Source: Nannochloropsis oceanica (lineage: Eukaryota; Sar; Eustigmatophyceae; Eustigmatales; Monodopsidaceae). Taken from it: DNA of 64,000 bases. The notes under the pieces were generated by a model, which searched no databases, was not told the DNA's origin, and was given only the letters and a program-made list of their open reading frames with translations. A program made the position numbers and the translations under genes. The stretch is from the NCBI GenBank assembly GCA_004519485.1, contig CP038108.1, positions 124,001 to 188,000 of the forward strand. Reading direction: 5' to 3'. Below, piece after piece: positions 3,787-40,755 of this stretch; the stretch's first letter is position 1, and each line of letters opens with the position of its first letter.

Positions 3787-6700
3787 TTAAAGCTGATTCA
3801 TGACCACGTGCTTCGCCAACTGCGACTGCTGTCCTTGGCATTGCTCCAACGCGATCTCGCAGCTAGCAATAAAAGGGAGGGAGGGAGGGAGGGAGGGAGG
3901 GAGGGGAAAAGGGGCGAATGAGACTTACACTTGGCATTGGCAAAGACCTTGCGGTGAGAGAGGAAAGAAGGGATGGAGGGAGGGAAGGATGAAGGGAGGG
4001 AAGGAGAGAGCGAGGGGCCATGCCCCTTGTAATTTATGGCTGCTGTTGGCTCTTCCCAGGGTAGGCACATGGAAGGAGGGAGGGAGGGAGGGAGGGACGG
4101 GAGGGAGGGAGGGAGGGAGGGACGGGAGGGAGGGACGGGAGGGAGGGACGGGAGGGAGGAAAGGCGAGAGGGTGGGAGTATCCTTGCCACTGACTTCAGG
4201 AAGAGGCAAGAGCAGGGGGCAAAGACAGAGGGAGGAGGGGGGGGAGGAAGCGATTGCGGGAGGGGTCTGCCTGTTGTCTGTTTTCTTACCTGCTCCGAGT
4301 CACCCTGGCCAGCGCCCCCTTCTCTCCTTTCCCTCCTCCTCCCCCCCTTCCCCCCCCCCCCTCCGCCGCCGGTGCTGGTGTCCTCCCCCGAGCCGAGTAA
4401 AGCTGGCAGGCCTGCACAGAGAGCATGAGAGAGAAGAGGGGGAGGAAAGACGACATGAGAAAAAAAGGAGGAAACCAGACAAAATTAGGAATAACAGGAG
4501 GCCAAGAACTTTGGGATACTCATACTGTCAGGTACTAACCCTAGAGGAATCTTTTGGCCCGAGCACTCCCGTCCTCCCCCCCTCCCTCCCTCCCTCTCCT
4601 CAGCATTGAAACAAGCAGTAGATCCTTTCACACCCTCTCCCTCCCTCCCTCCCTCCCTCCCTCCTTCCCTCCCTCCCTCCCTCCCTCCCTCTTTCCTGCA
4701 TACCGGGTTGTGGGTAGTTCGAGCACGAGCACTGCTCCAGCTTCTCGGCCACCGTGACAATGCGCTCCGACAGCTGCTCGGCATTCTGGAGGGAGGAAGG
4801 GAGGGAAGTAGGGAGGGAGGGAGGCAGGGACGGAGGGAGGGAGAGAGGGAGGGGAAGAGGGACCAGAGCGGAGGTGCGTCTTATTAAAGTGCGTTTGGAG
4901 TCAGAAAGGCGACTAGACAGCTACCCTTACCCTCCCTCCCTCCCTCCTTCCCTTCCTCACTCCCTCCCTCCTTCCCTACCTCGCTCTCGAGCTGCGGCGT
5001 GGTGGTCAGGGGCGTCATCCACAGATAGTTCCGGGTGAGAGTCGAGAGGAGGTCAAGGGCCAACGAGGACATGAAGTACTCCACCTCCAGCTCGTAGTAC
5101 CTGGGGAGGGAGGGAGGGAGGGAGGGAGGGAGGGAGGGAGGGAGGGAAAAAGGGAGGAATGTGAGAGGGGATACTCGACAGAGGTCCAAGTTCGGTAATT
5201 GTTTATTACCATGCCTCCCTCCCTCCCTCCCTCCCTCCCTCCCTCCCTCCCTACCGATTCCAGCAAGAGCCCCAGCGCTCGACGCGGGCCGTGTCGTTGG
5301 TCACGATCTTTCCGTCCGGCGTCTGGTTTGCTGGTGCCGTGTACTCGGGGGGATAGACCCCTGGGAAGGGAGGGAGGGAGGGAGGGAGGGAGGGAGGGAG
5401 GGAGGGAGGGTCAGGTGTTGAAGATGAAAGGGTAGGGCAAAAGGGCGGGAGGGAGGGAGAATGAGGGTTTGAGGAAGGATGGAGAGGGAGGGAGGGAGGG
5501 AGGGAGGGAGGGCACGTACGGTAGGCGCCGAATTCGGGCTTGTTCTTAGCGAGGGCTCGGAGGGGGTCCACAACGATGGCAAGCCAGGGACAGTCCTGGG
5601 GAGGGAGGGAGGGAGGGAGGGAGGGAGGGAGGGAGGGAGGGAGGGAGTTGACGACAGTGGTTGTTCGAGTCGGGGACAACCCTAGGGAGGGAGGGAGGGA
5701 GGGAGGGAGGGAGGGAGGGAGGGGTCGTACCTTGGCATCAGTGAAGCGCTGCCAGGCCAGCTGCGTCTGAACGTCAGTGGAGGAGAGGAAGCAATTGGAG
5801 TGCACCTGATATTGGGAGAGGGAGGGAGGGAGGGAAGGAGGGAGGGAGGGAAAGAGGGAGGTACGTCAGTACGGAAGAGGAAGCAATTGGAGTGCACCTG
5901 ATTGGGGGGGGGAGGGAAGGAGGAAGGGACCGAGGAAGGGAGGAGGGGAAGGGAGGGGGAAAGAGCAACCAGAGTATACTGGATGGGAAAGAGGGAGGGA
6001 GGGAGGGAGGGAGGGAGGGAGGGGATGGAGGGAGGGAGGGTGGGACGTTACCTCGACTGAGAAAGGGTGCGAGTGGTACCACCCCATAAACCTCTCCTTC
6101 CGGGTCTGTTTCGGTTCGAAGTGCATGCGTAGCATTTATTAAGGCATGTGTATGGAAGAGTGTCAAGCAACCCAGCTAGCCTGCCTTCTCCCTCCCTCCC
6201 CTCCCTCCCTCCCTACCTCTCTCCTTCCCTCCCCCCCTACCCCACCTGCTTCCCCTTCGTCCCCTCCCTCCCTCCCTCCCTCCCTCTCACCATCTCCAAG
6301 CTCTCTCCAAGGCTGATCATGTAATTTTGCACCTCCGTATCATCGGCCAATACGCGCGTTTCAGCCCCTTCCACAGGGAGCGGGAATACGTCCGTCACCA
6401 CCAAAGTGTTCTAAAGAGGAGGAAGGGAGGGAGGGAGGGAGGGAGGCGCATGGACATCACACCAGGAGGATTAAAGGGCTTAAAGAATGGAGGCGTTTGA
6501 CATCAAGGGATGTGGGACATAAGTATAGGAATTGTGCACCTCTTCCCTTCCTCCCTCTTTCCCTCCCTCTTTTATTGCCTACTGATCCGAGCCATCTTCC
6601 CTTCCCCTCCCTCCCCTCCCTCCCTCCCTCCCTCCCTCCCTCCCTCAGCACCCACCGGGCTCTCCACGTCCGGGCGACCAATCATGAGGCCCATCACTTC

Positions 6701-7726
6701 AACAGGCTTCCCCCCCGGGGCCTGCGAAAGACAAAGTGACGACAAACGGACGTGTGTGTGAGAGAAGTGCTTTGATATGACCGCCTTCCCCTCCCTCTCT
6801 CCCTTCTTCCCTTCTCCCCTCCCTCGTTTGACCACCCCCTCCCTCCCTCCGGCTCTTATGCCCTTTTTTTCCTCCCTTCTTGCGTCTCCTCCTCCCCCCC
6901 CCTCATCATCCCTAGCCGTCTTCCCTCCTCCCATCCCTCTCCCCGTCTCTCTTTCCCTCCCCCAACCCCTCCCTCCTCCTCACCTTCATTCCCTTCTCCA
7001 CCCCTCCACAAGCATGCATGAGCATCTTCATCGCCGCCGAGGGGGAAAGGCGAACCTTCTTAAAATACTTGGGGCTGTTGACGTAGGGAGAGGGAGAAAA
7101 GGAGGGAGGTAGAGAAGTGCGCATAAGAAGGAGAAACAATCAGGATCCTATGTAGCATCAGCCATGTGTCTTCCCGCCTCCCCTCCTTCCCTCCTTCCCT
7201 CCCTCCCTCCCTCCCTCCCTTCCCCTGCCCGTCGACGCACTCTTGGCTCCAGGCCTTGGCCGCCATCACTTCCTCCAACCGGCTCTCGTTGAATGTATAC
7301 CAGCCATCTCGAGCCTGCGCGGACATGTCTATTCCACGATAAGAAGGAAAAGGGGAGAGGGGATAAAGGGAGTAGTATATGTAGCGGGGTGAATGTTCAG
7401 ACGTTGGTGCTCTACCCCCCTCCTTATTTTCTTTCCATCGTCCCCATCCCCCCTCAGATTCCCGGTCCAACCAGATCCATCTAATGCACCAATATCCACA
7501 ACAGCCTATGCATGTCAAATGCGTGCCGGCTAAGCCTCTTCCCCCCCCCCCCTCCAACCCTAACCCTGAAGGGAATTGGAACCTCCCCCTCCCTTTTCAT
7601 GTCCCCACCATCCTCACCTGAGGCGGCAGCATCTCCCGGGGGCACTGGAGGAGCCGTATTACTGCTGCTACTCGACGCATCCGTCGAAGAAGAGGAAGAG
7701 GCGGCAGCAGCCCCACCTGTGACCAT
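3787..7726 (-). CDS. CSN5: COP9 signalosome subunit 5 (JAMM/MPN+ deneddylase)
   Basis: Catalytic subunit of the COP9 signalosome, which removes NEDD8 from cullins. Thirteen exons all close in phase and give about 382 aa: 7618-7726, 7241-7328, 6984-7074, 6656-6721, 6291-6410, 6052-6105, 5731-5805, 5520-5595, 5255-5360, 4980-5100, 4704-4785, 4290-4374, 3787-3862. Family blocks appear in order: DPKYFKKVRLS, VEVMGLMIG with the JAMM Glu (E104), LPVEGAETRV, WYHSHPF (H169, H171), SSTD (D187), WLAIVVDPLRALAK, AYRVYPPEYTAP, RWGSCWNRYYELEVEYFMSS, EKLEQ. The spacing between HSHP and the Asp is longer than in animal or plant CSN5 and resembles my recollection of fungal-type CSN5. Rpn11 is excluded by the CSN5-type C-terminal half. 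The N-terminal 36 residues are Ser/Ala-rich. Almost every intron carries (CCCT)n; the intron before exon 7 holds a partial copy of that exon. Confidence 0.93.
5599..5646. repeat. (GGGA)n intronic microsatellite
   Basis: About twelve GGGA units inside a CSN5 intron, CCCT on the gene's sense strand. It represents many similar tracts in this window (for example 5101-5155, 5213-5252, 5371-5410, 5682-5722, 25549-25607). Confidence 0.9.
5863..5905 (-). other. Decayed partial copy of CSN5 exon 7 within intron
   Basis: The segment repeats, with few differences, the acceptor and first 33 coding bases of the real exon at 5731-5805 (real VHSNCFLSSTD, copy VHSNCFLFRTD). It keeps an AG acceptor and is followed by GTACCT, a usable donor. 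As a 33-base mini-exon it would preserve the reading frame. It lies just upstream of the real exon in transcription direction. Confidence 0.75.
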
Positions 7727-8538
7727 AGTTTCCTAGGTTTAGGAGCCGTGGGTTAAGGGTAGGGGTAGAGGAGGAGAGGGAGTATGGGAGAGTGGACGAA
7801 ACATGCACAGTATAGCCTGAGCCAGCTAATTGGCAGGCCAATGGCTCTTTTCGTGATCATGGCGAGATGGAGGTTGTGGCCGCGTGCTAAATTTGTGCAC
7901 TAAGGTGTGTGTGATTTGAGCATGAATGAAAGACGAAGACATGGAAAGAAGGATGGCGCTGCCGCCTGCGGCAGGCGTTGTGCTTGCCTTCTCCCACGGA
8001 TTGTTCGCCAACAAAAATAATGCGCATTTTCTTTTAGGATGACCGACTGCCCAAAATAAGCTACACACCACGGCCACATGCCTCGAAAAGAGGAGAAAAC
8101 GGTAGTGGAATAATATGTGGTGGTGGAGAAAGCGCTCTTTCGGGGCTTGACCGGGCGCAGCTCGGCTGCTTACCGTGGTCATCGCCCAGGCCCCCGTCCG
8201 TACGTTTATCTACCTTCCACACCCGTTCACAGATGTGCGTGCCATGAACAACCGCCACCAGCAGAGACACACGAAGAAGACACTTGTGGTTTTTGTTGAG
8301 GAGCGCCAGATGTGGCATCGGGTGTTTCGCGGCTGCTTGGCGTAGCTTTTCTATTTGCCTCTTTTTCAATAACTTACACGTCCAGCGTGCAAGCCATGAA
8401 CATCACTTTTACCAACGGCCACTCAGCATCGTCTCTCGTTCCCTCTCCGTACACTACAGTTCCTGCGTTGAGCTCTTCGTGGCAGTCATGGTGCGATTCA
8501 TACAATCACCGCGACCCAAATCAGGCAGGACGGTAAAG
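7727..8538. other. Divergent intergenic region CSN5 / U-box gene
   Basis: About 810 bp between two genes transcribed away from each other, so it should contain both promoters. There is a short palindrome-like run (CCGCCTGCGGCAGGCG) near 7965-7985. I see no convincing TATA box or other defined element, and the small open frames here look fortuitous. Confidence 0.5.
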
Positions 8539-9647
8539 ATGACAAGCAAAGTCTTGTCCACCGAGAAACGCAAGCAGACCCAGAGCAAGGGTGGGAAGCA
8601 GGCAATAATGTGAGTAAGAATTGAAGGCGTTGGGAGCGAAGGCAAGGTAGTGCATGAAGAAAGTGCGATTTGGAGAAGGCGGAGGGAGAAGGGATTGTAG
8701 GGAGCCATGCGGAGACGAAGATTGCGGTTTGTGTTGGTAGCTGCAGTCTGTGGGGCGTATCACGTGACGTGACTTCCCTTGCAGGCGGGCACTATACTTT
8801 CTTCTATTTTCGTAACTCGTCTAACGTACCAATGCATACAGCGACGAGGAGGCCCAGATCAAAGCACTTGAGAAGAAGGTAGCGGCATTGAGGTAGCGAA
8901 AATTTTCCATGTGCAAATCTCTACAGTCTAATCGTGGGTGCCATATTTTGGCTTGCATAGAAGATTCTCTGCGATCTTACTTGTATCTTTTTCCTCCCTG
9001 CCCTTCATTCTCTCCATCTCGTCACCACCTTTATCACCTCCAGAGCTGCTCGAAATCAAAGCAAGGGTGCAACAGTGGCGAATTGCGCGAAGAGGAGGGA
9101 ACGGACGAATAGCAGCATCAACAGCGGCAGCAGTAAGAATGGTTATTCACGTGCAGTGCTCTTTACCAATGAGGAAGAGGAAGGAGAGGAGGAGGAGGAA
9201 GAGGCAGAAGAAGAGGAAGAAGAGGAGGAGGAAGAGGTGAAAGAGGAGGAGGAGGAGAAGGAGCCGGACGCGCTGGTGTGCCCCCTGTCCCTGGAACTTT
9301 TGTCCAAGGCCGTCTGTGCTGCGGACGGCCACACGTACAATCAGGACGTGCTTCAGGCGTGGATTGACCGGTGCCGCAATGACCGAAAGCCGCTCACCTC
9401 CCCTCTCTCAGGGAAGCCCATGCAGTCTTTCTTTCTTCCTAATCAGCTGGTCAAGACATTGGTGCGCGATTATACTGAAGCACGGGAAAAGCGGGAGAAT
9501 GCAAAGGAGGGTAGGGGGAGAGAAGGGGTTTCGACGAATAAGTGGGGGAAAGGAAAAGTCTGGGGTTCCAAGAAGGGGAAAAGGCAGAACACGAAGGAGA
9601 ACCTGAAGGCACCAGCCAAGGCCGAGGTCCAGAAACAGAAGAAGTGA
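8539..9647 (+). CDS. U-box domain protein
   Basis: Probable E3 ubiquitin ligase or adaptor. Three exons close in phase: 8539-8609, 8842-8892 and 9044-9647, giving about 241 aa. The N-terminus is a basic, helical stretch (KALEKKVAALR), followed by a long Glu-rich run encoded by GAGGAA repeats. Then comes the U-box: ALVCPLSLELLSKAVCAADG, HTYNQDVLQAWI, PLTSPLSGKPM, LPNQLVKTLVRDY, matching the CPI-x-DP-hxxxGhTYxRxxI pattern of the fold, which lacks zinc-binding Cys/His. The canonical Asp-Pro after the first strand is replaced, as happens in divergent members. The C-terminal 60 residues are Lys-rich and could be a nuclear localisation signal. No ARM, WD40 or TPR partner domain is present. Substrate unknown. 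Confidence 0.85.
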
Positions 9648-10343
9648 ACAGAGACATGGCCAATGAACATATGAGCATATTCGTGATAAAGAGAAAAGGA
9701 TTGTACACTTAAAACAAAAAGAGAGGAAATTTTGTCCAGCCACTGCTAATTGCGGACGTAGGATAGCTGTAGGGGATAGAAAATTGAAGCAGCAGCAGAG
9801 CTGCGACCAACAATACAATGTGTCATCAATTGTAGGTTCAAAATCTCATCAGAAGGTTTGTGACCGCAGTTATGTTCCCTCCCCTTTACTTAGACCATGT
9901 TTTGTGAGGGTGGGGAGGTTGATATAAAATTCGTACAAGTTTCAGAACTGCACAAGCCCCGAGGGGTATCTAGTGATAAGATTTGGGAGCCCCATCCATG
10001 ATGGTTTTAACACGGTCTAGTTTCGACCTTCTTCGGCATTGCCATGAAAGGCCCTCTTGGAGGGTGCTTTTTGAAGAAACAAAGTCAAGACCAGTCAAGG
10101 TGGCATTTTGGTTTTTCATTTCATGTAAAATGACTGTAATCCACCGACCTAATGACCTTCGATGCTATGAAATTGTCTTTCTGACATTTTCGAGTCGAAA
10201 AGAGGCCAAATCAGTGTGATTTATGCAGGTTAGTGCGAAATAAATTGACGAACACGCTCTTCAACTCAACCGCGCCACTCCATCCAGGCCACCAACCAAC
10301 AAATACACACCATGCCTCCCCTTATGCAAGCACAGGTGTCATC
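9648..10343. other. Intergenic, no element recognised
   Basis: About 700 bp between the U-box gene and the pseudouridine synthase gene, both on the plus strand. It is more AT-rich than the coding regions and without (CCCT)n tracts. It should contain the upstream 3' UTR and the downstream promoter; I identify no motif. Confidence 0.5.
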
Positions 10344-12096
10344 ATGGTGCCAAGAAGAAGGTCTCGAGCAATAGGTGCACCAGTACGACGTATGGTTGGG
10401 GTCCTGACACTCTTATTTGCCGGCCACAGCTTATTCGTCACCACCCATGCCCGTGCTGCATTTCTGCTGCCCTCCGCCGCCTCGGGTCGCTGCCCTTCAT
10501 CACGCTCCCACCCAGACCCTGCGACAGGAAGGAGGAGACACAATGTCCCACATATGGCACGTACCAGCGGTAGCAGCGGAGGTGGCGGTGGTGGTGGCCG
10601 GAGGGATGGAGGAGGCAATTACAGAGGAGCCAACCGGGATGCGCCACGCCGACGCTTTAATGACGACGACGACGAACGGCGCCGCCGCCGCAGCAGCAGC
10701 AATAGCAAGCCCCCACATGGCAGCAATAGAGACAGTTACAGTGGACGCAGTACATCAGCTACAGCAGCCGACACAAACGACATGCGTGGACAGGGACTAC
10801 GCAAGGCTTTGTCGGCACTAACGGGCCTCCGTGGTGACAAACCCTCCGCTCGAAAGGGCCAAGCAGGCACATCCAGAAAGAAATCGTCTCCCTCCTCCCC
10901 ATCCATAGCACCGAAAGGTAGCGTCGTGTCCCTCTCTCCCCGTGGGGCCACTACGCGGCTGAATAAGATGCTGGCGCATGCCGGAGTCGCCTCTCGACGA
11001 AGCGCAGAGGAAATGATTGCTCAAGGGAAGGTCAGCGTGAATGGCGTGATTGTGTTGGACGTGGGTTGCAAGGTTGATCCATCTGTGGACTCCATAACGG
11101 TGGAGGGGAAGGCTGCGCCGGTAGCGTTGCGGAAGGCGAGTGAGGTGGTGTGGATGAAGGTGAACAAGCCGAAGGGCACTCTGACGTCAATCACGGACAG
11201 CAAAGGCCGTAAATGTCTGGGGGATCTGGTGGAAAGCGCGGTGGAAAAGCGGCTTTTGCCTGTTGGACGGTTGGACAGGGACACTGCGGGATTGTTGTTG
11301 ATGACGAATGACAACGAGGCAATCAATCTGTTGACGCACCCGTCCTTTGGCCACGTTAAGTTGTACAAGGCTGTGGTGGAGAAGGGCATGCCGTCTGTGC
11401 ATGTTTTGCACCAGCTTAAGAGGGGCTTGGTGCTCTTGGAGGAGGAGAACGGGGGTAAAGAGGAGCTGGAGGGGGGGGTAAGGGGAAAGAGGAAGGGGGG
11501 GGGGGGAGTATGATGAGAGGGGGCGGCGGAGGGTGGTGCCGCGAGGGAAGGGGGGAGGGACGGTGACCTTGGAACCGTTGATGGTGGAGACGGTAGATTA
11601 TTTCGCGGACCGTAAGGAGGCGGTGTTGGAAGTCTCAGTGAGGGAGACGAAGAGTGAGGAGATTAGGCGGGCTTTTGAGCAGGTGGGGCATCCGGTCAAG
11701 GGATTGACAAGGGTAGCTTTTGGGTCTATCGTGCTCGGTGATATGAGGCTGGGGGAGGCGAAGAAATTGTCGATGGTGGAGATGGGACGTTTGAGGGGGG
11801 CGCTGGCGGCGATGAGGAAGAGGATGAGCCGTCGGAGGAGAAAGGCGTTGACGGGTTTGGGATCCGAGGGCGAGGAGGAGGGAAGGAGGGCGAGGAAAAA
11901 GAGTAAGGGGGGAGGAGTGATGGGAGCGGGAGGGAAGGGGGGAATAGCGGGGGAGGAGGGGGCGGAGGAAATAGATCCAGATATTGAGGCGTTCTGGGAT
12001 GCGGTGGAGGATGAGGAGGACCAGGAGGAAGACGGGGTATGGTTGGGCGATTATGATGAGGACGAGGACGAGGGGGAGGAGGAGGAGTCGTCGTAG
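10344..12096 (+). CDS. Plastid-targeted RsuA/RluB-family rRNA pseudouridine synthase
   Basis: Isomerises uridine to pseudouridine in rRNA, presumably plastid rRNA. The start at 10344 gives a hydrophobic signal peptide (VGVLTLLFAGHSLFV) ending ARA-AFLLPS, an ASAFAP-type plastid signal. A Ser/Arg-rich linker follows, then an S4 RNA-binding domain (TTRLNKMLAHAGVASRRSAE, VSVNGVIV), the catalytic motif GRLDRDTAGLLLMTND with the nucleophilic Asp, and HVKLYKAVVEKG. The family C-terminal half (VRETKSEEIRRAFEQVGHPV, LTRVAFGSI) lies in another frame, offset at a 12-G run (11495-11506). One base less would join the frames; alternatively removal of 11478-11508, a phase-0 GT-AG segment of only 31 bases, does the same. 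The C-terminus is a long acidic tail. Confidence 0.85.
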
Positions 12097-12233
12097 CGAG
12101 AGTCAAACAAATAGAGAAAGGCGACAAAGTACCCCTCAGAACTCACTCATAGATTGCCTTGCATGTTCTTTATTTTTAAATTCCTTTTCCAATGTTATTT
12201 AAACTTCACACCGTACAGATATCCGTTACTTCT

Positions 12234-13271
12234 TCAAAAGCGTCCCTTCTTGGCCCGAGCCCGCTCGATGACCGACTCGGCGACGGAGGCAGTGCTGAGG
12301 GTAGTGGTCGTTGGTGCCAAGCTCTGGGCGCTCACACTCCCCTTCTTCCTCCCTCGCCACGACGACAAGGATAAAATCGAGCACGTCTCGGAATTTCCTT
12401 GTCGATGCCTGCCTCTATAAACACTGCCCTTTGGCCTGTAGTCTCGTCCTCGTCCGCTGGTGCTGGTGCTAGTGCTGATGGTGCTAGTATTGCTGATGCT
12501 GGTGATGGCTCCACCTGGAAGCTTGCCCAGCGTGAGCGCCGAAAGGCGCGACACATGCGAACCCACTTCTTCATGTTCCGCTTTCCTAACCTCCATTTCC
12601 TGCTGCTGCGCCCTCCCTCCCTCCACATACTTCGGACAGACCTCGGCAAAGGCCGTAAACCCGCCCGTCAACACGAATACGTTCTCCCATCCCCTTTCCA
12701 CAAGCTGCGTGGCCATCGACGCCGCAAGTCCTGCACGCTCATCGTCATCGTACAAAATAACCAATGTCCTTTCCAGATTCTTGTAGCGGCGCAGCTCTGG
12801 AAAGTACTTGTCCTGGTGCAAATGCGCGTGGGGAAACGGACGGGTGTGGGTAATGACCCCAAGAGTGGGTGTGCTCTCGCCCTCGTCGCGGACATCGAGC
12901 AACAAAAAAGGCTTCTCATACACAGCATCATCCAGGCTCCCGTGCGTCACTACCAGTGGGCCGCAGCCCTCTGCCTCCTCCAGTGCGTCTTGTGTTCTCA
13001 TTTCATCGTCGTATTCAAGCAGTAGAGCTCGGAGCTGTCCGGGATTGACCCGACAAAACGTCTCTTGCCGTCGACGCACATACTGCGCGAAAGTCACCAC
13101 CTTGACCTTGTTTATTGTTGGGCCCGAATTAATTTTGCTGCGCACGTGATGGTATTGCCGTTGGGTGCGAGGCGGCAAAGGCGGCAAAGGCAGTGGTCTC
13201 TCGCTGATGGAGGAAGAGGTGGAAGAGGAGGACAAGGCGCGGCGACTCTCGGTCAACCGGGCACGATGCAT
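12234..13271 (-). CDS. CEP41: CEP41-like rhodanese-domain protein
   Basis: Single exon, 345 aa. The rhodanese fold occupies roughly residues 115-215: PFLLLDVRDEGES, HLHQDKYFPELRRYKNLE, LVILYDDDERAGLAAS, GWENVFVLTGGFTAFAE. The ILYDDDER block and ERG(F/W)EN-(V/L)F-L-GG arrangement are characteristic of centrosomal protein CEP41, and there is no catalytic Cys in the active loop, also as in CEP41. In animals CEP41 helps tubulin polyglutamylation at cilia and basal bodies. The C-terminal 120 residues are Ser/Thr/Arg-rich and disordered. The N-terminus is Ser-rich without a clear targeting peptide. It converges with the pseudouridine synthase gene, leaving about 140 bp between stops. The function is inferred from the family only. 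Confidence 0.8.
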   Translation of the reverse strand: MHRARLTESRRALSSSSTSSSISERPLPLPPLPPRTQRQYHHVRSKINSGPTINKVKVVTFAQYVRRRQETFCRVNPGQLRALLLEYDDEMRTQDALEEAEGCGPLVVTHGSLDDAVYEKPFLLLDVRDEGESTPTLGVITHTRPFPHAHLHQDKYFPELRRYKNLERTLVILYDDDERAGLAASMATQLVERGWENVFVLTGGFTAFAEVCPKYVEGGRAQQQEMEVRKAEHEEVGSHVSRLSALTLGKLPGGAITSISNTSTISTSTSTSGRGRDYRPKGSVYRGRHRQGNSETCSILSLSSWRGRKKGSVSAQSLAPTTTTLSTASVAESVIERARAKKGRF

Positions 13272-13986
13272 GATGTTGATGGACTGTATTGAGAATGACT
13301 GAAGTAATCGTGCCTTGGGTCAGTTGATGGAAACCACGGCTTGTGAGGTAAGGTGAAGACGACTTCCCCAATATTGACGGCGGGCGCAGCACATGAAAAT
13401 TGCGGTAAACATGGCCCAAATTGTGCCGGGCCATGGTGCGAGGTAGTGAGTGGTCTCTATGAGCCAAGCTGCAGTCCTCCCTGCTGAAGGCGGCCACAAT
13501 AAATGCGACTCACACACTTTCCACGCCAAAACAAGCACTTTTGTTGAATAAGGCATGGGCCCGCGGATGCACATTAAAAGCCCAAAATGTGCCAGCGAAG
13601 AAAGTATCCATCCAATTTCTTTTGGGGGTGCGTTGCCTCTGCGTTGCAGCACTACCGTGACCTCTCTCGCCACCCTTCATCTTCCCGTTTTGCCACGATT
13701 CTCGGCATCGAGCGATCTTGGTCTTGTCATCTGGGTTTTGCACACTTTGTGCCTGTGTTTGGCTTCAGCTCTCGGTTTGGGGATCACACCCATTTCCACT
13801 CACATTGAACTGCCGAGCCAACATGATTCGTAGCCTCCTCTCCCCCTGTCCACTCGCGAGCGCAAGCACTGATCTAACTCGCCCAGCGGGAGTGCCTGCG
13901 TGCGCGTTTCTAGATCCTCCATTTCCTTTGCACACAGCACATGACCATCACTCCCCAACCTTGTCGCCATCATATTCCAACAGAAG
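13272..13986. other. Divergent intergenic region CEP41-like / PGK
   Basis: About 715 bp between two divergent genes, hence probably both promoters, including that of a highly expressed plastid PGK. The sequence is ordinary in complexity, without (CCCT)n tracts. I recognise no specific element, and the short open frames here match nothing I know. Confidence 0.5.
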
Positions 13987-20155: not shown

Positions 20156-23008
<2,853 letters not shown>

Positions 23009-27441: not shown

Positions 27442-27984
27442 TATCGTGGTAGTCGTCATGGAACCGTGTATTCCTTGCATGGAAAGGAAGGGGAGGATGT
27501 GGGTGTCGTGTTGGTCCTTGGGCCTTGTTGCGTCCCGGTCACCCCGTGCGCGCACCTGTCTGCCTGGCCCGCCGCCCTGTCGTTGTAGCACAATGGTCGG
27601 CGAGGTGAGTGGGCGCAATCGTATGAGTGGGTGTGTGTATGTGTGTGTTGCGAAGTACCACTTTACTTTCTTCTTTGTTTGTTTGCCGCAGCCGCACATC
27701 ATCGTCCATCCAGAGCAGCAGTCGGACGCCCGCTGCCCTCTTTGCCAAAGCCACAGTCACACACATGCAGAGCACATGCAACAAAAGGACACGTGTCAAT
27801 GTCACTCAAACCTCTTTCCTCTTCTGGCAGTGCAGCTAGTCAAGGGTTCGTTCGTCCACCCGGATGTGCAAATGGCCTCGCCAGCATCCCTTGTCATTCG
27901 TCGCAGCGCCTTTCCGGCTCCGTCGACCATGTCCTACCCGCGCACTTATACTGACTGCGATTTTCCCCCACGCACACCCAAAGC
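27442..27984. other. Divergent promoter region dapF / methyltransferase gene
   Basis: About 540 bp between divergent starts, containing a TG-rich patch (27625-27650). No specific element is recognised; both genes encode putative plastid proteins. Confidence 0.5.
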
Positions 27985-31160: not shown

Positions 31161-34100
31161 ATGAGGCGGCGGGCCGGGGATCACCACCCTTCAAGGGGCG
31201 GAGGAGGCAGAGGAAGATGGGCTTTCCAGCCCTTCCTCCCTCCTCTCCTCCTCTTCGCCCTGACGACCATCCCCAGATTGTGGGGTTTTGTCACCCCCAT
31301 CCCACCCGCACCTCCCTCTTCTTTTGCATCGTCGAAATTGCGTGTCTCTACCACACGTATCTACTCCTCCACCCTCTCTCGAGGGCCACGTGTGCGCACT
31401 CTTATCGCCAGCCCCCCACCTCCCATCCCCTTTCCAACCTCCCGGTCGTCACCTCCTTCCACCTCTCCCTCCTCCTCGCCTCAGCAACGGGGCTTTAATG
31501 GAAAAGACGACGAAGAATGGGAAGAGGAAGATGAGGGAGGGAAGGGGGAGCGGCCTCTGTGGCGGCGACGGCAACGGCAAATGGACGACGTAGAGAAGGA
31601 CAAGGACTACATAGAGCAAGCCATAGAAGACGACGAAGCAAAACGGCAGAAAGCGCGCCGTCGCTCGAGCTACTCTGCGTCTCCATCAATGCATCGTCTA
31701 AAGCAAAGATCCTCTTCTTCGCTCCGGCCTGATCACCCTGATGCCCTCCAAGCCCGGGTCATCACCAACGCCGCCCAGTACTCCCTCCTCGTCGCCGGGG
31801 CCGGCACGGGCAAAACCCGTGTCCTGGCCGCACGCATCGCCCATTTAGTCAAGACCAAACAAGCGCGTCCAGAGGAGGTCTTGGTCTTGTCCTTTACCAA
31901 CGCAGCCGCCCAGTCGATCCAAGCACGAGCTAATGCCCTGTTGGGGGGGATCTTACCCCAACAGCAGCAGCAGCAGCAACAACAACAACAACACCATCAA
32001 CAATACCGTCAGAAGGAGATGGAAGGATGTGGGGGGGGCGAAGGCGGGGTATTTCTTACCGCAGGGACATTTCACGGGCTGGCAGCTGCCATGCTGAGGG
32101 AGCATCATCAATTAGCCCTCGGTCGGCCCCTCCGAATAGCCAGCAAAGCCCAGCAGCTCCATGCCATGCGCCAGGCCATGCAAGAGGCCTTTGGGATGCC
32201 CCATCGCCTTCCTTCCATCCCTCCCTCCCTCACGTCTTCCTTGGTGGAACAACACCGTTACCTTGACGGGGAGGCTGAGGCGATGCTTCGATATATCTCC
32301 TTGTGGAAAGCGTCCGGTTGCCGGCCCTCGGACTTGTCCCCCGCCCTCTGCGAGAACCCGACCGAGAAGCGTGCCTGCCGTCTGTACCATCTTTACGAGC
32401 ACTCCCTCCACCACTCTCTCGGCGTCCTGGACCTGGATGACCTGGTTCTGGTCGCAGGCGATCTCCTGGTAGCATACCCGGCAGTACTCGCTGCGTACCA
32501 ACGCCGGTGGAAGCACGTGCTAGTGGACGAGTTTCAGGACACGAACGAAGCCCAGTACATCCTCTTGCGCACGCTCGCCTTGGGGGCCACGCCCACCGCC
32601 ACGACTGGAGGGCAGCAAGGCGAGGGAGGGAGGGAGGGAGGGATGTGCGTCTTGTGTGCCGGGGACGACGACCAGAGCATCTTCAGTTTTCGAGGGGCGC
32701 GGGCTGGGCGGGCGTTTGCGGCGTTTCTGGCCGATTTTCCAGGAGCCGTTGCAGTGGGTCTTCCGATTTCGTATAGACTGCCCAGCCATATCTTCTTGGT
32801 GGCGCAGGAGGTGATTGCACGGAACGCGGCTCCTCCCTTGTTCCCACCCTCGGCCTCGTTTCCTCCGCCGGATGCGGGTGAGGAGGAGGCGGAGGGAAAG
32901 GGGGAGGGAGGGAGACAAGGAGGGGATGGGCATGGCGAGTCCATATTGGAGTTTTATTCGCACCAGGAGGAACAAAACACGGCAATTGGTGCTGGTGCTG
33001 CTGGTGCTGCGGCCCTCCCTCTCCCCCTCCCTTCCATCCCTCCCCGGGACTTCGCGCCTCGCTTGGCGCCCGGGGTGACACTGGCCGGACTGCAAGAGAG
33101 GGCAGGTCGAGCGGAGGGCTGGGCGGAGGGAGGGCTGGAGGGCTGGAGGGAGGGAGGAAATGGTGACCTGGTAAGTCGCGTAAGTGTGCAAGAGGTGTGG
33201 GATGACGAGGATGAGGCCCGTTGGATTGCCAGGACGGTGAAGGAGCTCTATCTCTCCTTCGGGTCCTCTTCCTTTACCTGGGAGGAGCAGAAAGCCTTGT
33301 TCGATCGCTCTTCCTCCGCCCCTCCCTCCGCCCCTCCCTCCTCCTCGGCCTATGTCGACCCTCGTTCGTCGCCTTTGTCTTCTCCTCTCGGGCAACCGCC
33401 AGCCTCTCTTAAGAATGACGGTCATAAGGACGAGGATCTTGTGGACCTCCCGGCTGCTTCCTCCTCCTCCTCCCCCCCCTCCTCGTCACGGGAAGAGGAG
33501 GGGAAGGAAGAAGAAGAAGGAGACAAAGAAGGAGAAGGAAAAGGCGACGCCGAGGACACGCACCACCTGGCCATCCTTGTGCGGTCCGGCTGGCAGCTTG
33601 GCGTGTTGGAAGAAGCCTTAATCCGGCAACGCCTCCCTTACGTTGTGCAGGGGGGCGCGTCACTGCTCAAGACTGCCGAGGCTCGCGCTGGCATGGCCAT
33701 GCTGGGGGCGTTGCTGGAGGGAGGGGGGGAAGGGGAGGAGGAAGGGGAGGAGGGGAGGAGAGGGAGATGGGAGAAGGTGGCTGGGGCATTGGGGTATCGG
33801 GGAGCGGGGAGTGTGTGGAGGAGGGCGAGGAGGGAGGGGATAAGCGTAGGGGAGGCGGCGTTGAGGACGACGATGGATCAGGAGTTGCAGCAGGGGGGAG
33901 GGAGGGGGGGAGGGGGGGGGGAGGAAAAGCTGGTGACGCGGCGTGTGCCGGAGCTGGTTTTGTTGGAAGGCGATGTCCCGAGGTGGAGGGCACTATTAAA
34001 GAGGGAGTGGTCATCGCGAAGGCGTCACAAGGCCCTCCGGATGGTGATGGAAGAAGCAGGCCTCCTCCCTCCCTCTTCGTCCTACCCCCCTCGCTCCTCG

Positions 34101-35882
34101 TCTCCTTCCCACACTTTCAAGAAGGGAGGGGCTGCCAACGATCTCTCTCGGCTTCTGTCTCTCATTGCCGACTCGTTTGATGACCCTACGCACCTGGGCA
34201 CATGGGCCTCCGCCGTCCAGACTCCCCACCTCCACCTGCCTCACCCCCACCCTCCATCTGCTACTCGTCCCGAAGGACGACAACAAGTTCCACAGAAGAA
34301 GAAGGAGTACAGCAGGAGGCAGCAGCGGAAAGTGGTTCTGAGCACCATGCACGGTGCCAAGGGGCAGGAATTCGACCTCGTTTTCCTCGCCGGCTGGGAC
34401 GAGGGGGTTTTCCCCCTCCTCCCCCGCACCTCTTCCTCTTCCGGTCCTTCCACCCTGGCACTGGCCGAAGAGCGGCGTCTTGCCTATGTGGCTTTGACCA
34501 GGGCTCGTTTGAATGCTTACATAACGTTTACGCACCGGCGGCGTTTGCCGGGGGGGGCATGGGTGACCACCACGCCGTCTCGCTTCATTGGCGAGATTCC
34601 TCGGAGGCTGGTGCGACTGCGGTTGTTAGGGCCTGCACGGATGCAGAGGGGCATCAAACCGAGTAATGACGTGGACTTTAGGCGGCTTAGACCGTTGGGC
34701 GTAAGGACCCGGAAGGATGCGTTCTTGGTGGAGCCGCGGAAGAGGCGGGGCGGGTGGGGAGGGGTGGGAGGTGGGGGTTTGGGAGTCGAAGGAAGCGTGC
34801 CGGTTGCGGAGAAGGAGACCGAGAAGGAAGAGGAGATGGGGAGGGTTTCATCGATGGTGAGGGAGGACGTGGAGGAGGGGATAGTGAAGGAGGACGTGAG
34901 GGAGGGAGAGGGGGAGGGAGGGGTTATGCCGGTGCTTTTTCCACAGCCGTCTGGGTTGGGAGCTGCTGTATGTGGAGGCAGAGGAGGAAAAGCAACAGCA
35001 GCAGCAGCGCCAGCTATGATAGCATCAGTGCCAGCAGCAGCAGCAGTGGAAGCAGCCGTCTCCCCGGTCCACATTCTCCGTGACGACACAGAGGCCGAGC
35101 GCGTCATCCTGGTCGCCCCCCAAGACGAAGCATCTCTCTCCCCCCTCGCTGTCCAATCCGCCGCCCGATCCCTCGCTCTCACCGCGGCCATCGCTAAGGG
35201 CATGGTGTTAGAAGAGGGCAGGACACAGGAAGACGTCAAAAAATTGCAGAGACGACGGCAAAGGTCAGCAGCGCTGGTCGTCTCCAGGGCCGCGCTCCCA
35301 CTGGAGAAGGGAGGAAAAGGGGAAGGGAAAAGTGTGCCGGAAGTGATTCCCTCCTTGCTAGCCCTTCTGGCAGACCCTGTGATCGTTCAAAAGAAGAAGC
35401 TGCGTCCGTTCTACCGTGCCTGTATTCAGGCAACCGGGCATAAGCTCAATGCCCTCCCTTCCCGCGAAGATCCTTCCCTCCTCCTCCCCCTCTCCCTCAC
35501 CCCCACCCACCACCTGGGTTTGCTGGCGGTCGCTTTTCTGGTGACGGATAAAACGATAGTTTCCTTGGAGGGGTGGGGGGCGCTAAGGACGTTATTTCGG
35601 GCCGTTTTGAGAGTGTACGGCGTGACGGGAGGCAAGGTGCCAATGTGGGAGAAAAGGGGACGGAGGGAGGGAGGGAGAGAGGGAGGGAGGGAGGGAGGAA
35701 TGGCGAAGTTAAAGTCGGTGCTGGTGTGTGGAGGGGCGGAGCTGGGAGATGTGTTGCTGGCGCTCTTGGCGCAGGAGGAGGGGATGGTGGAGGTAGTGGG
35801 GGAGGAGGGAAAGGAGGAGAAAGTGAAGATAAGCGCGTCGAAGAAGAGGGGGAGGAAGACGGTGAAAGAGGACAAGGAGTAG
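31161..35882 (+). CDS. Plastid-targeted UvrD/PcrA-type SF1A DNA helicase
   Basis: Long intronless frame, 1573 aa from the Met at 31161 (an upstream in-frame Met lies at 31101). The N-terminus has a hydrophobic leader (FQPFLPPLLLFALTTIPRLW) followed by GFVTPIPP, consistent with plastid targeting. Helicase motifs occur in order: Walker A GAGTGKTR (about residue 211), VLVLSFTNAAA, GTFHGLA, DEFQDTNEAQ (Walker B), GDDDQSIFSFRGA, ISYRLP, then after a low-complexity insert WDDEDEARWI, LSTMHGAKGQEFDLVFLAGW and EERRLAYVALTRAR. This is the UvrD/PcrA/Rep order, so 3'-5' unwinding in plastid DNA repair or replication is the inferred role. Large Gly/Glu, Pro/Ser and Gln inserts separate motifs. The C-terminal 500 residues are unrecognised. 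Some GGGA-rich inserts could be unspliced introns. Confidence 0.88.
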   Translation: MRRRAGDHHPSRGGGGRGRWAFQPFLPPLLLFALTTIPRLWGFVTPIPPAPPSSFASSKLRVSTTRIYSSTLSRGPRVRTLIASPPPPIPFPTSRSSPPSTSPSSSPQQRGFNGKDDEEWEEEDEGGKGERPLWRRRQRQMDDVEKDKDYIEQAIEDDEAKRQKARRRSSYSASPSMHRLKQRSSSSLRPDHPDALQARVITNAAQYSLLVAGAGTGKTRVLAARIAHLVKTKQARPEEVLVLSFTNAAAQSIQARANALLGGILPQQQQQQQQQQQHHQQYRQKEMEGCGGGEGGVFLTAGTFHGLAAAMLREHHQLALGRPLRIASKAQQLHAMRQAMQEAFGMPHRLPSIPPSLTSSLVEQHRYLDGEAEAMLRYISLWKASGCRPSDLSPALCENPTEKRACRLYHLYEHSLHHSLGVLDLDDLVLVAGDLLVAYPAVLAAYQRRWKHVLVDEFQDTNEAQYILLRTLALGATPTATTGGQQGEGGREGGMCVLCAGDDDQSIFSFRGARAGRAFAAFLADFPGAVAVGLPISYRLPSHIFLVAQEVIARNAAPPLFPPSASFPPPDAGEEEAEGKGEGGRQGGDGHGESILEFYSHQEEQNTAIGAGAAGAAALPLPLPSIPPRDFAPRLAPGVTLAGLQERAGRAEGWAEGGLEGWREGGNGDLVSRVSVQEVWDDEDEARWIARTVKELYLSFGSSSFTWEEQKALFDRSSSAPPSAPPSSSAYVDPRSSPLSSPLGQPPASLKNDGHKDEDLVDLPAASSSSSPPSSSREEEGKEEEEGDKEGEGKGDAEDTHHLAILVRSGWQLGVLEEALIRQRLPYVVQGGASLLKTAEARAGMAMLGALLEGGGEGEEEGEEGRRGRWEKVAGALGYRGAGSVWRRARREGISVGEAALRTTMDQELQQGGGRGGGGGEEKLVTRRVPELVLLEGDVPRWRALLKREWSSRRRHKALRMVMEEAGLLPPSSSYPPRSSSPSHTFKKGGAANDLSRLLSLIADSFDDPTHLGTWASAVQTPHLHLPHPHPPSATRPEGRQQVPQKKKEYSRRQQRKVVLSTMHGAKGQEFDLVFLAGWDEGVFPLLPRTSSSSGPSTLALAEERRLAYVALTRARLNAYITFTHRRRLPGGAWVTTTPSRFIGEIPRRLVRLRLLGPARMQRGIKPSNDVDFRRLRPLGVRTRKDAFLVEPRKRRGGWGGVGGGGLGVEGSVPVAEKETEKEEEMGRVSSMVREDVEEGIVKEDVREGEGEGGVMPVLFPQPSGLGAAVCGGRGGKATAAAAPAMIASVPAAAAVEAAVSPVHILRDDTEAERVILVAPQDEASLSPLAVQSAARSLALTAAIAKGMVLEEGRTQEDVKKLQRRRQRSAALVVSRAALPLEKGGKGEGKSVPEVIPSLLALLADPVIVQKKKLRPFYRACIQATGHKLNALPSREDPSLLLPLSLTPTHHLGLLAVAFLVTDKTIVSLEGWGALRTLFRAVLRVYGVTGGKVPMWEKRGRREGGREGGREGGMAKLKSVLVCGGAELGDVLLALLAQEEGMVEVVGEEGKEEKVKISASKKRGRKTVKEDKE

Positions 35883-36672
35883 GAGAAGGCAGAGGAGATG
35901 TAGTAGAAGTAGAAGATCAAAACGTAGTAGTAATAGGATGCAAAAAGGAAGGTAGATGTACTTTTGATTGAGTGGCGTTAATCCAGCTATGCGTCGGGGG
36001 GCAGTGTATGTACATAGAGAGGAGTGTGTTGCTAAAAATGACAAAACAATTTAACCCGATTAAAGTTAGATAACGAGATATTTAAACGAAGAACAAGAAC
36101 AAAATATTATGGTGAAGATGATGATTATGTTATGATAAAAAAATATGAAAGGAGAGGGGACCCCAAAAAAGAAGATGTAGTTGTAGCAGTACGAGTAATA
36201 AAAAGATGGTGTCACCCCAAAAAACTTAAGCCATAGACGCCTGAATATATTTTAAAATGACCGACAGACCGACCGTGGAGTTTCCCTCCCTTGGTTTTAT
36301 GTAGCCGGGTCGCTTTCTTTATCTACCGATGGACTTCTCTTGGCCGTACAATCGGCCTTTGTGTCTAATCGCCGTTTTTGTGTCTGTCCTTTCTGTCTCT
36401 CTCTTTGTCACTCTCTTGGACCCTCTCTCATTCTCTCTCTCTCCCTTTCTCCATGTCCCATCTTAATCTTTCCGTCTCTTTCACACACACACATATACAC
36501 TCCCTCCCTCCCTCTTTTTCTCTTTAATACAGGCGCATGCACATAAACACACTCCTCTCCCTCCCCCTCTCTTTTCTCTTTACTCAGGCGCACGCACATG
36601 AACACACCTTCATATTTTTCCTTCTTTACACCGTCTCATCCACTTTCCCTTCCTCATCTTCCCACTTTCCTC
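35883..36672. other. Convergent intergenic region
   Basis: About 790 bp between converging genes. The first 400 bases are AT-rich with ordinary complexity; 36380-36600 is T/C-rich with CACACA words. No gene is recognised. Confidence 0.5.
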
Positions 36673-38184
36673 CTACTTCCCCTCATTCTCACACTTCCCC
36701 TCACACCTCATCGTCCCTCCCAACTCAAACGCAATCCGTTCCATAATCACCTCCCTCGCCACCTCTTCCCTCCCCCCCCCCTTCATCACTGACGCGATCA
36801 GCCTGGCCTCGCCCTGGAACGACTCCTGGCACAGTTTTTCAAAGCCTTTCCCCGTCGGCCCTGAGAGGCAGGCCGCACTGCCTAACGGAAACGTTAATTC
36901 CAGCACGAGCCGCCGACGTCGAGGGGTCAAAGGAGAGGGAGGGAAAAGCGCACTCGCAACAATCTTGCCAGGGCCACTCCCTCCCTTCTTCTCCTCCTCC
37001 TCCTCCTCCTCCTCCTCCTCCTCCCTTTTCTCAGCCATTGCACCCGGGGCAGCACCACGCATCATCCTCTTCCTCTCCTCCTCCTCCCTCCCTCCCTCTT
37101 CCTCACCCCATCCCTCCAGGACGAACCTCGCCCTCCCTTCACATCCATCCACCTCCTCCGCCACCAGCACCGAGTTCACCGGCTTGAAGTCCCAGGCGAT
37201 GCCCAGCTCCTCGTCCCGAAAATGCGCGAAATGAGTAAATATTCCAGGTGAAACCTGACCGTAGGAAAGGACGAACGCCACCGAGGAAGGGAGGGAGGAA
37301 GAGGAGGCGTGGGAGGAAGGGGCTGCCGTCACGCCCTGCGCCCACAACCACGAGTCTGGGAAACGCTTTCCCCAGTTCTTCTCGAGATGCACAAGCCCGT
37401 GGCGACTCTCCATCACCTTCCCTCCCTCCCTCGCGCCCTCTGCTTGATGCAGCTCCAAGCGGGCGTAGAGGAGACGGGAGGAGAGGGTGTGGATGTACCA
37501 GTGCAACGGAACCTCGTCAATAATGTCCGTCCAGCTGTGAGGACGTGGAGAGCCGTCGTACGCCCAGGGAGAAACCTCGATTTGGGCAAGAAAGCGGGCG
37601 GTGGGCAGGGTGATGTGCAGGAAGAGCAAGGGGCCCTCCTGGACTGCGGTCATGGTGGTGAAGGGGGAGGAAGAGGAGGAGGAGAGGGAGGAGGACGACG
37701 AGGAGGAGGAAAGCATCATATTATTGATTTCTTGCTTGATGGCCTCGGTGTCGGCGGTAAGATTATCGGAGTTGTGATGAGAAGGGGTGCGGGCGCGCCA
37801 GGTGAAATGAGGTTCTGTCCTCCAATCCGGTGACTTGGTAATGTTTCGGCCATAATGCCCTCGGATCTCCACGGACTCCAACGGCGGGTTCCCTTCGTAA
37901 ACAGTGGTCTTGTTCGTCTTGCCGTCCCCGTGGAGGATCGCGACATAGCAGGGGGGTAGGGAGGAAGGGGGGGAGAGGGGCAGCAAGGAGGCACCGAAGA
38001 TAACCCCTAGAGTGTCGGACGTGTCCAAGCTAGTGAGACGGACGTACCATCCCTCCACGTAGGGAGGGGTGGAGGGCCAGGGGTGGGGGTCCCAGGCGGA
38101 AGAGGATGAGGGTGTGGGCAGTAGGGCGAGAAAGGCGAGGAGGAAGAGGAAAGGAAAGAGGATGGGGTGGGATTGCCAGTACAT
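36673..38184 (-). CDS. Tocopherol-cyclase-like (PF14249-type) secretory protein
   Basis: Single exon, 503 aa. It starts with a clear signal peptide (LFPFLFLLAFLALLPTPSSS) but with no Phe-type plastid motif after it. The mature part begins YVEGWYVRLTSLDTSDTLGV, matching the EGWYxR(x)T opening of tocopherol-cyclase-fold proteins, and later has VHLEKNWGKRFPDSWLWAQG, the family's most diagnostic EKNWG-x-FP-x-W-W/L-Q block. The interval contains a Ser-rich insert (encoded by CTC repeats) and a Glu-rich insert before the C-terminus, so only parts align. True tocopherol cyclase (VTE1) closes the chromanol ring in plastids; many members of this family are not cyclases, and the secretory leader argues for another role. 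Function uncertain. Confidence 0.72.
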   Translation of the reverse strand: MYWQSHPILFPFLFLLAFLALLPTPSSSSAWDPHPWPSTPPYVEGWYVRLTSLDTSDTLGVIFGASLLPLSPPSSLPPCYVAILHGDGKTNKTTVYEGNPPLESVEIRGHYGRNITKSPDWRTEPHFTWRARTPSHHNSDNLTADTEAIKQEINNMMLSSSSSSSSLSSSSSSPFTTMTAVQEGPLLFLHITLPTARFLAQIEVSPWAYDGSPRPHSWTDIIDEVPLHWYIHTLSSRLLYARLELHQAEGAREGGKVMESRHGLVHLEKNWGKRFPDSWLWAQGVTAAPSSHASSSSLPSSVAFVLSYGQVSPGIFTHFAHFRDEELGIAWDFKPVNSVLVAEEVDGCEGRARFVLEGWGEEEGGREEEERKRMMRGAAPGAMAEKREEEEEEEEEEEKKGGSGPGKIVASALFPPSPLTPRRRRLVLELTFPLGSAACLSGPTGKGFEKLCQESFQGEARLIASVMKGGGREEVAREVIMERIAFELGGTMRCEGKCENEGK

Positions 38185-38832
38185 GGTAACGCGGGTCTGT
38201 AATTTGATTATTATGGGGGCAGAGGTGGGTAGGAGAGAGCTTTGCTGATGAATGACCGCACGGATGGAGACGGCTGATTTTCCACAGGGTCGGACATGTA
38301 CTTTGTATGCTTAGTGTGTGGTTTCGCGTGGTGCCGACGCCGATGTCCGTTTTGAATGACTTTGCATTTTGTTGCAGGCAGAGCAGAACATGAAAAAGAC
38401 GAGAGAGGGAGCGACCAGCATCGGTTTACGTTCCGAGCGGCCTGCTTCCCTCTCCCACGAGAGGAAATAGTGTGTACAAAAAGAAACCACAAAATGAAAC
38501 AACCCTATCCCCCTATAACAACCAAGTCTGCGTTGGATAATATTCGGGATTCTTTTCCTTCTTTTTGGAAGTGTCTTGCCTTCTCACTCGTCTCCGTACA
38601 ATTTCTAACTATATGCCTCAGTCACGTTATGTCTCACTTTTCTCATTTTCCACCGACATACACCGCACATACAACACTCACGACATATACATATATATAT
38701 GTATGTGAGAGTGTGTGTGGGAGGGTGTGTGCGTAAATAGTGATTTTCATTCGCATGTTCTGTTCAACGTCACAATTCCCCGCACATGGAACACATAAAT
38801 TTACAGCTCTTCTCGTACTCCTTCCCCCTTCA
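38185..38832. other. Intergenic between two minus-strand genes
   Basis: About 650 bp containing the promoter of the tocopherol-cyclase-like gene and the 3' end of the PLA2-like gene. A short ATATAT/GTGTGT microsatellite lies at about 38688-38735. Nothing else recognised. Confidence 0.5.
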
Positions 38833-40755
38833 TCAAGGCTTGCCGTTGCTGCTCGTCGTCGCCGTCACTACCTGTGAGGACGACTTGAGTCCCTTGCTCT
38901 TCCCATTGATCATCCGGGACTCATGGCTGCTGCCCTGCACCATTCCTTCCTCCCCCTTCTTCTCGTCCTCCCCAAACCAGTAGGCTCGCCCTCTTTCCAT
39001 CCCGCCCTGTGCTTGCTGTGTGAAATGTATGTATACATAAGGAGGAAGGAAAACATTAATGTATAAATCAGTACGCATGCATCCACAACTCCACTCAACC
39101 CTTCTCTCGTCCTCGCTCCCTCCCACCCTCTCTCACCAGGTCGAGGATCTCGGCGTCCACCGCCATGTTCCTCCTAAAAACGTCCAAGAGCGAGTCAAAC
39201 TTCCAGCGGGTCACAGGATCCCAGTACTGGGCAGGCAGGCGGCCTGACGGGAGGGAAAGGGGGCGGAAGGGATAGGGGGGGTGAATGGTCCGGGACAACG
39301 CTTCCTTGTTTGTTTACATGTGTTTACCGACATTTACTTATTGATTTATTTATTTAGTTCACGTTTAAGTCAACCATTCAGTACCTTGTTCTCCCTCTTT
39401 CTCGTCTGCTCCCTCCCTCCCTCCCTCCCTCCCTCCCTCTTTCCCTCTCCCCCTCACCCTCCGACACCAGCGTGTCGAAATGCCCCAGCATCTCCTGGTC
39501 TGCCTCGTGGACACACAGGTAGTAGTCGCGGTCGAGGTTGGCGAGATAGGTCTTGCGGAAACCCGACTGGACTGAACGAGTGGCGATGAGGGCCGAGGAG
39601 GGCGCCGTTTTGCCTTGTCTAAGGAAGAGTGAGGGAGGGAGGGAGGGGGGGAGGGAGGGATGGAGGGAGGGAGGGAGGAAAGGGTGAGTCTTGACCACCA
39701 GGTCAAACAAATCAGATCGGCATCCCATTGACCGACAAAGCAAGGCCTCCAGGAGTCCTAGTGTCTATCGTGCTTTCCTTCCATTCAACGCCCTCTCCCA
39801 CCCCCTGCCTCCTTGCCTCCCTCCCTCTTTCTTCATCCCTACCCCTACCAAGCATGTCGTCCCATGCCTCCCTCCCTCCCTCCCTACCTCCCTACCTGGC
39901 GTAGATCGAGTCACACTTGCAGTAAAAATGGTCGTGCAGGCGACACACCTCGTCCGTGTCGTCCAAGGCCGCTAGATTCAGAGGGTGCTGACAGCCCGTG
40001 GACGGCGTAATCTGATGGAAGGAGGGAGAAAAAGAGGAAGGGGGAAGAGGGGGGAGGTTTCAAAAGGATGAGGCTACTAGATTAGGAATGATAAGGCTGT
40101 TAGATTGATCGAGCATTCAATCAATCATTCATTCAATACTAGATTCGGCGGGTGCCGACAGCCCGTGCAGAGGGTTATCTGAACGGAATGTGGAAGATGG
40201 TAGGAAGGATGGAAAAGGCACGACAGCTTCAGCATGGCCTGCATTCTCGTGAGCACGCACCTACACCCCCCAAAAAAGGAAAAAGGGAGAGAGGGAAGAG
40301 GGACAGGTGAGGGACGTACCTCAGGTGTAGGGCCGCAATAATCGCCATAGTGTCTGAAAGATTGAAAATAAGGGCATATGTACATATATACATGTATAAA
40401 TGGAAGGATTAATCGTGCGTGAATGACCCCAAGCCGAGATTCTGTTTACCTCGCCTCTCCTCTCTCCCTTCACCTTCCTCCCTTCCCATCCCTCCACATA
40501 CATTGGGTCGATGACGCGCTGGTATACGAGCTTCACCTCGATAGGAGACGAGGGTATCTCGATATTAGGAAGGGCCGGGATGGGGAGTCCCAGGAATGTG
40601 AACGCACTGGGAAGGTGGTGCCTGCTTGTTCCGCGGGATCGAGGGAGGACACTCGCGGTAGCCGAGATCGCGGTGAGGGACAGGACAAGGGAGAGGAGAT
40701 GGAAGGTAGTGGCAGCACATTGGAGCAGCTGGCGAGGACAAGGAGGTGCCGTCAT
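38833..40755 (-). CDS. Secreted phospholipase-A2-like protein
   Basis: Six exons close in phase: 40502-40755, 40320-40353, 39896-40011, 39458-39618, 39137-39243, 38833-39006; about 281 aa. The N-terminus is a signal peptide (FHLLSLVLSLTAISATASV). Residues about 86-135 carry the secretory PLA2 core pattern: HYGDYCGPTPE (the YGxYCG calcium-loop-like motif) and DEVCRLHDHFYCKC, equivalent to DxCCxxHDxCY with the catalytic His-Asp pair. The calcium loop glycines and the doubled Cys are not fully conserved, so this is a divergent member and activity is not certain. The C-terminal half is charged and unrecognised. The intron before the third exon contains a partial copy of that exon. PLA2 would cleave the sn-2 acyl chain of phospholipids (family knowledge). 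Confidence 0.75.
40139..40182 (-). other. Decayed partial copy of PLA2-like gene exon 3 within intron
   Basis: This segment matches the acceptor and first about 38 bases of the real exon (39896-40011): real ITPSTGCQHPLNL, copy ITLCTGCRHPPNL, both preceded by CAG. Roughly four of five bases agree. It sits upstream of the real exon in the sense direction. Confidence 0.75.

Follow-up and report, generated by a model that had tools for sequence, protein, structure and literature searches.

Partial copies of exon edges in introns of Nannochloropsis oceanica, probably left by small tandem duplications across exon-intron boundaries

In a 64,000-nucleotide stretch of the genome of Nannochloropsis oceanica, an oil-producing eustigmatophyte alga (GenBank assembly GCA_004519485.1, contig CP038108.1, positions 124,001 to 188,000; hereafter "the window"), three unrelated genes appear to carry, inside an intron, a partial copy of the exon that follows it. 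The locus thus raises the question of whether this genome has a directional, exon-generating process linked to the tetranucleotide tracts, (CCCT)n or (AGGG)n, in its introns, as the initial annotation had suggested, or whether a simpler event is responsible. We put the probability at about 75% that the copies are small tandem duplications, with copies 83 to 167 bp apart, which spanned an exon-intron boundary and then decayed. They look like the products of ordinary small-scale duplication and do not point to a novel, directional mechanism for making exons.

The initial annotation gave no coordinates for its three copies. They were placed in the present analysis, are called A, B, and C, and lie with their original exons as follows:

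5864 to 5902, minus strand: partial copy of event A, exon start plus acceptor CAG, inside intron 5806 to 6051 of the CSN5 gene
5731 to 5805, minus strand: original exon of event A (VHSNCFLSSTDVQTQ...), from the gene model
about 22771 to 22818, plus strand: degenerate copy-like stretch of event B, 16 residues, recognised by protein similarity in intron 22717 to 22879 of the ribonucleotide reductase R2 gene
22880 to 23008, plus strand: original last exon of event B, ribonucleotide reductase small chain, from the gene model (Pfam PF00268, E = 6.4e-75 for the predicted protein)
40139 to 40180, minus strand: partial copy of event C, exon start plus acceptor CAG, in predicted intron 40012 to 40319
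39896 to 40011, minus strand: original exon of event C, from the gene model

All three are alike in that the start of an exon is copied upstream of the original, and two are genuine as DNA copies. In event A, positions 5772 to 5810 and 5864 to 5902 agree over 39 nt at 89.7% identity with a spacing of 92 and share an exact 27-mer, and the homology runs beyond the splice site into the intron (CAATCAG). The gene encodes COP9 signalosome subunit 5 (CSN5; PDB search, E = 2.1e-42; Pfam JAB), and the copy sits 92 bp upstream in gene direction, between exons 6052 to 6105 and 5731 to 5805. As a separate observation on this gene, the spliced protein (5731 to 6105) has five added residues between HSHP and the SSTD motif relative to human CSN5, at the junction adjoining copy A. 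In event C, positions 39972 to 40013 and 40139 to 40180 agree over 42 nt at 81% with a spacing of 167. The gene, on the minus strand with its ATG placed by eye at 40755, encodes a product that matches nothing in Pfam at 1e-3 and nothing convincingly in the PDB, and the predicted intron contains no CCCT/AGGG tract of at least four units.

Event B, which was spotted by reading the sequence, is of a different standing. Its DNA similarity is at the level of chance (strict score, 14; lenient shuffle, p = 0.085), and no AG precedes its start; its protein similarity scores 39, a value that 0 of 1,000 shuffles reached (shuffled mean, 18). We therefore regard B as a probable, not a proven, copy of the start of the last R2 exon. 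A second R2 gene, on C4, has an intron with tracts at the equivalent site, in which no counterpart of copy B was found by eye in this single paralogue. The proposal of three partial copies of the same type accordingly holds at the DNA level for A and C, and probably holds for B at the protein level alone.

How often such copies occur, and on which side, was determined in 334 kb of the 29.3-Mb genome, comprising the window, a 200-kb block of C1, and seven 10-kb stretches (L029 to L035) that were picked for tract matches and supply about half of the introns. The 278 predicted introns come from genes scoring at least 15 in our own gene finder, which was trained on the sampled sequences themselves and used a donor cut-off of -1. 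Each exon edge, taken to a length of at most 90 nt, was compared with the exon's own intron after masking of tracts, with the reverse complement and swapped introns as controls. Planted 40-nt copies were recovered in 253, 249, 213, 111, and 18 of 261 introns at 0, 10, 20, 30, and 40% divergence, respectively. A tract was defined as a CCCT/AGGG run of at least four units for intron counts and at least three units for the check between copy and exon. Repeats were sought by local BLAST after tract masking, the unmasked whole-window search having been swamped by tracts; the masked self-comparison of the window yielded few local repeats.

At a DNA score of at least 30, the edge scan returned six direct matches, divided equally between exon starts copied on the 5' side and exon ends copied on the 3' side:

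starts of downstream exons: A (score 50), C (score 43), and L032 7634 to 7782
ends of upstream exons: L032 2192 to 2535, L033 2066 to 2425, and L035 1549 to 1776

The reverse complement gave no starts and no ends in the same 278 introns, and swapped introns gave 0.0 starts and 0.05 ends per set. Lowering the threshold to 24 gave six starts and three ends, against one and none in the reverse complement and 0.95 and 0.8 in the swapped control; the matches scoring 24 to 27 at L029 1513 and L031 6347 were left uncounted because swapped introns yield about 0.9 at this threshold. The protein scan, at a score of at least 39, found six starts (A, B, C, L032-7634, L032-7955, and L032-3790) and two ends (L033 and L032-2192, with L035 scoring 36), compared with one start and no ends in antisense and 0.3 and 0.55 in the control. 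Together, the two scans give nine events in 278 introns, six on the acceptor side (5') and three on the donor side (3'). As a class, exon-edge copies in adjacent introns are real and above chance, and their recurrence in direct orientation in unrelated genes is borne out. Outside the window they lie in an amino-acid-kinase-domain gene and a dephospho-CoA kinase (CoaE) gene in L032, an ACBP-PH-MBOAT gene in L033, and a CLPTM1 gene in L035, all named from Pfam. Three further repeats were set aside: L030 247/369 (30 nt, 80%) was too weak to count, L029 9592/9834 (150 bp) lies outside predicted genes, and window 58272 to 58336/58401 to 58465 is an in-frame coding repeat (SQTLND; 77%, spacing 129 nt) inside a single predicted exon.

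A 5' bias, on which the initial annotation had staked its proposal in advance, does not appear in the 334-kb sample: the split of 6:3 has a binomial p of 0.51, and by DNA alone at a score of at least 30 it is 3:3. The side of the copy follows which exon edge was duplicated, and the 5' rule seen in the window fails beyond it. Spacings are 92, 109, 167, 117, 124, and 97 on the acceptor side and 94, 129, and 83 on the donor side. By eye, homology crosses the splice site not only in A but also in L035 (donor plus about 17 nt) and in L032-2192 (donor plus tract), where an additional copy lies near 2356; in the other events the intron part of the homology is short or unclear. This homology past the splice site argues that genomic DNA was duplicated, unlike copying from spliced mRNA.

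The copies are direct in orientation, lie at exon boundaries, occur on both sides of exons, and have diverged, and both sides are placed as duplication across a boundary predicts. A duplicated piece lying over an acceptor would place a second intron end, AG, and exon start 5' of the intact exon, and one lying over a donor would place a second exon end, GT, and intron start 3' of it. In either case the full exon would survive, and the partial copy in the intron would be expected to decay more or less neutrally. Slippage or end-joining may have produced the tandem duplications. Exon edges are where copies would be conspicuous, since exon sequence is easily told apart from tract-filled introns and duplications within exons are likely selected against. 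An exon-free tandem duplication is also present, at L016:471-619 (C1:370471-370619; C1 block 70471-70619), where 74 bp are repeated at 98.7% wholly within an intron, as judged by reading; it was likewise set aside from the count.

Several observations weigh against this interpretation. The antisense protein match is a false positive with a score of 47, and three events, B, L032-7955, and L032-3790, all on the acceptor side, lean on protein similarity (DNA scores of 14, 25, and not above 20, respectively). Four of the nine events fall in a single 10-kb stretch, L032, across two genes, and a counterpart lacking the copy was seen for one event of nine only (B, in the paralogue). At C, the intron segment preceding the copy should resemble the one that separates copy and original, yet the resemblance is weak (p = 0.052); at the other events tracts mask this test. 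Finally, our gene models miss exons, for example CSN5 6052 to 6105 and 4704 to 4785.

Chance similarity would account for B at the DNA level and for the antisense match, but the six DNA matches scoring at least 30, where about 0.05 are expected and none is inverted, refute it for A, C, and the four DNA events outside the window and make it scarcely credible overall. Hardly better placed is the unequal exchange or slippage between two exon-flanking tracts that the initial annotation envisaged. Tracts are frequent on both sides of exons in tract-rich genes, but by no means flank nearly every exon: 164 of the 278 introns bear one, yet these include only 38 of 71 in the window and 8 of 75 in the C1 block, compared with 118 of 132 in the chosen stretches. 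Such exchange also predicts copies of whole exons, whereas none of 278 adjacent exon pairs is similar after masking (5 of 278 unmasked) and every copy has one end inside the exon, so two-sided tract exchange is largely refuted. A tentative but less improbable variant, and a special case of tandem duplication across a boundary, makes tracts the cause: replication would stall in (CCCT)n/(AGGG)n as a quadruplex or triplex forms, and template switching would re-copy the adjoining exon edge. Events occur in 8 of 164 tract-bearing introns and 1 of 114 others (p = 0.087), and in 9 of 203 introns outside the C1 block and 0 of 75 within it (p = 0.12), and the outer ends of seven of the nine copies lie 9 to 26 nt from a tract. 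The link is only a trend, however. Introns with events are longer (median, 308 versus 193), and greater length alone raises the chance of an event; moreover, 16 to 60% of randomly placed points in those introns come equally close to a tract, so that the outer ends are not clearly tract-associated. Nor are copy and original always separated by tetranucleotide tracts, as had been described: a tract intervenes in seven of the nine, and C and L032-7634 have none of at least three units between copy and original exon. It is possible that tracts raise the local rate of duplication.

A further alternative is that the copies function in splicing, as small exons or as alternative sites, and are retained for that reason. 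Four can be read in frame as mini-exons, counted by eye (A, C, L032-3790, and L033, at 33, 39, 36, and 21 nt), and some copied acceptors match or approach the strength of the originals (copy/original: A, 13.0/8.3; L032-7634, 15.0/9.0; L032-3790, 14.1/14.8; for C the scores are 4.4/11.3). Donor scores are -2.1/2.6 in L033, 5.1/4.2 in L032-2192, and 0.4/0.4 in L035. B, L032-7955, and L032-3790 retain amino-acid similarity despite DNA divergence, which is no independent sign of selection because protein similarity was the search criterion. Against such use, the outer donors of the four in-frame copies A, C, L032-3790, and L033 are weak (-2.5, -4.5, -1.2, and -2.1, where predicted introns have a median of 3.4, a gap partly built in by the finder's cut-off), B lacks an AG, the acceptor of L032-7955 is poor (-12.2 against 12.8), and the 64-nt copy L032-7634 is out of frame. 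In the CoaE gene, skipping both copies leaves a Pfam CoaE domain that is complete (profile positions 1 to 179 of 180), so both are dispensable there. On balance, retention for use as exons or splice sites seems unlikely, and the proposal that the process could be a major source of new exons finds little favour in the weak outer donors. It is similarly a long shot that exon edges are duplicated often enough, at nine in 278 introns, to give intron-dense, tract-laden genes a steady supply of mini-exons, with four of nine readable in frame (21 to 39 nt) and some perhaps spliced in as insertions of 7 to 13 residues. Separately, in the L032 intron 7955 to 8379 (minus strand), the exon-start copy terminates by eye in a stem of about 16 bp formed by CCAGGGGCTGCGTCGA with TCGACGCAGCCCCTGG.

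The tracts themselves show an order of their own. Relative to the direction of the gene, 91 of 101 AGGG tracts fall in the 5' half of the intron and 161 of 233 CCCT tracts in the 3' half, across the 278 introns; in the window and the C1 block, which were not selected for tracts, the ratios of 5' to 3' half are 25:4 for AGGG and 13:40 for CCCT. The finder's acceptor model prefers pyrimidines in the last 18 nt and accounts for only part of this polarity. An AGGG tract at the 5' side is combined with a CCCT tract at the 3' side in 53 of 278 introns, and the 43 that are shorter than 400 nt all fold their ends together, a result obtained without a shuffled control. Tracts in the window and the C1 block are commoner where introns are dense (31 of 46 introns if a gene has six to nine predicted introns, 15 of 100 if it has one to five), and tract-bearing introns might have been gained in batches. 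Tract-rich sequence also occurs at the ends of C2, C12, and C14 and near the end of C3 (e.g., C2:1-825, C12:100-1000, and C14:348-620). Low-complexity sequence or simple repeats make up 8.7% of an N. oceanica assembly, according to a passage of PMC3499364. Other repeats in the window are a coding-like inverted repeat (2203 to 2321 and 2617 to 2735; 120 nt, 70%, 414 bp apart) and a minisatellite at 49264 to 49502 with a unit of about 91 bp in 2.4 copies.

Exon-edge duplications have here been counted against controls in part of a compact stramenopile genome, and the count corrects the picture of copies on the 5' side only. Extended genome-wide and combined with transcripts, it would give the rate at which duplicated splice sites are ignored, tolerated, or used, which bears on intron growth and the origin of small exons.

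The exon-edge copies described here are a known kind of event. Tandem exon duplication, including that which gives rise to mutually exclusive exons, likewise leaves a second copy of exon sequence next to the first within one gene, but it copies whole exons, whereas here only exon edges are copied. Gao and Lynch (2009) and Hellsten (2011) reportedly described intron gain by tandem duplication, and the former is probably the closest work. Our literature searches returned no description of exon-edge copies in Nannochloropsis, including in the passages retrieved from PMC6610115 and PMC3499364; the papers retrieved on partial exon duplication and introns concern other subjects, judging by title, and the main text of a paper on introners (PMC9860276) does not mention Nannochloropsis. 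According to the review PMC3443670, short tandem genomic (internal gene) duplication is a well-described route of intron gain, in which, as here, a short in-gene duplication includes splice-site sequence and one copy ends up in an intron. By that route a new intron arises within an exon from a duplicated AGGT, whereas here a pre-existing intron would have received an exon edge and a splice site; for B, the corresponding intron is present in the C4 paralogue but lacks the copy, contrary to AGGT-type intron gain. Regional tandem duplications also lie behind novel intron positions in Drosophila, as PMC2891723 reports, and these too involve partial exon duplication near a splice site. In the Drosophila case, duplicated proto-splice sites set a new intron position, whereas in N. 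oceanica the original boundary seems still to be used.

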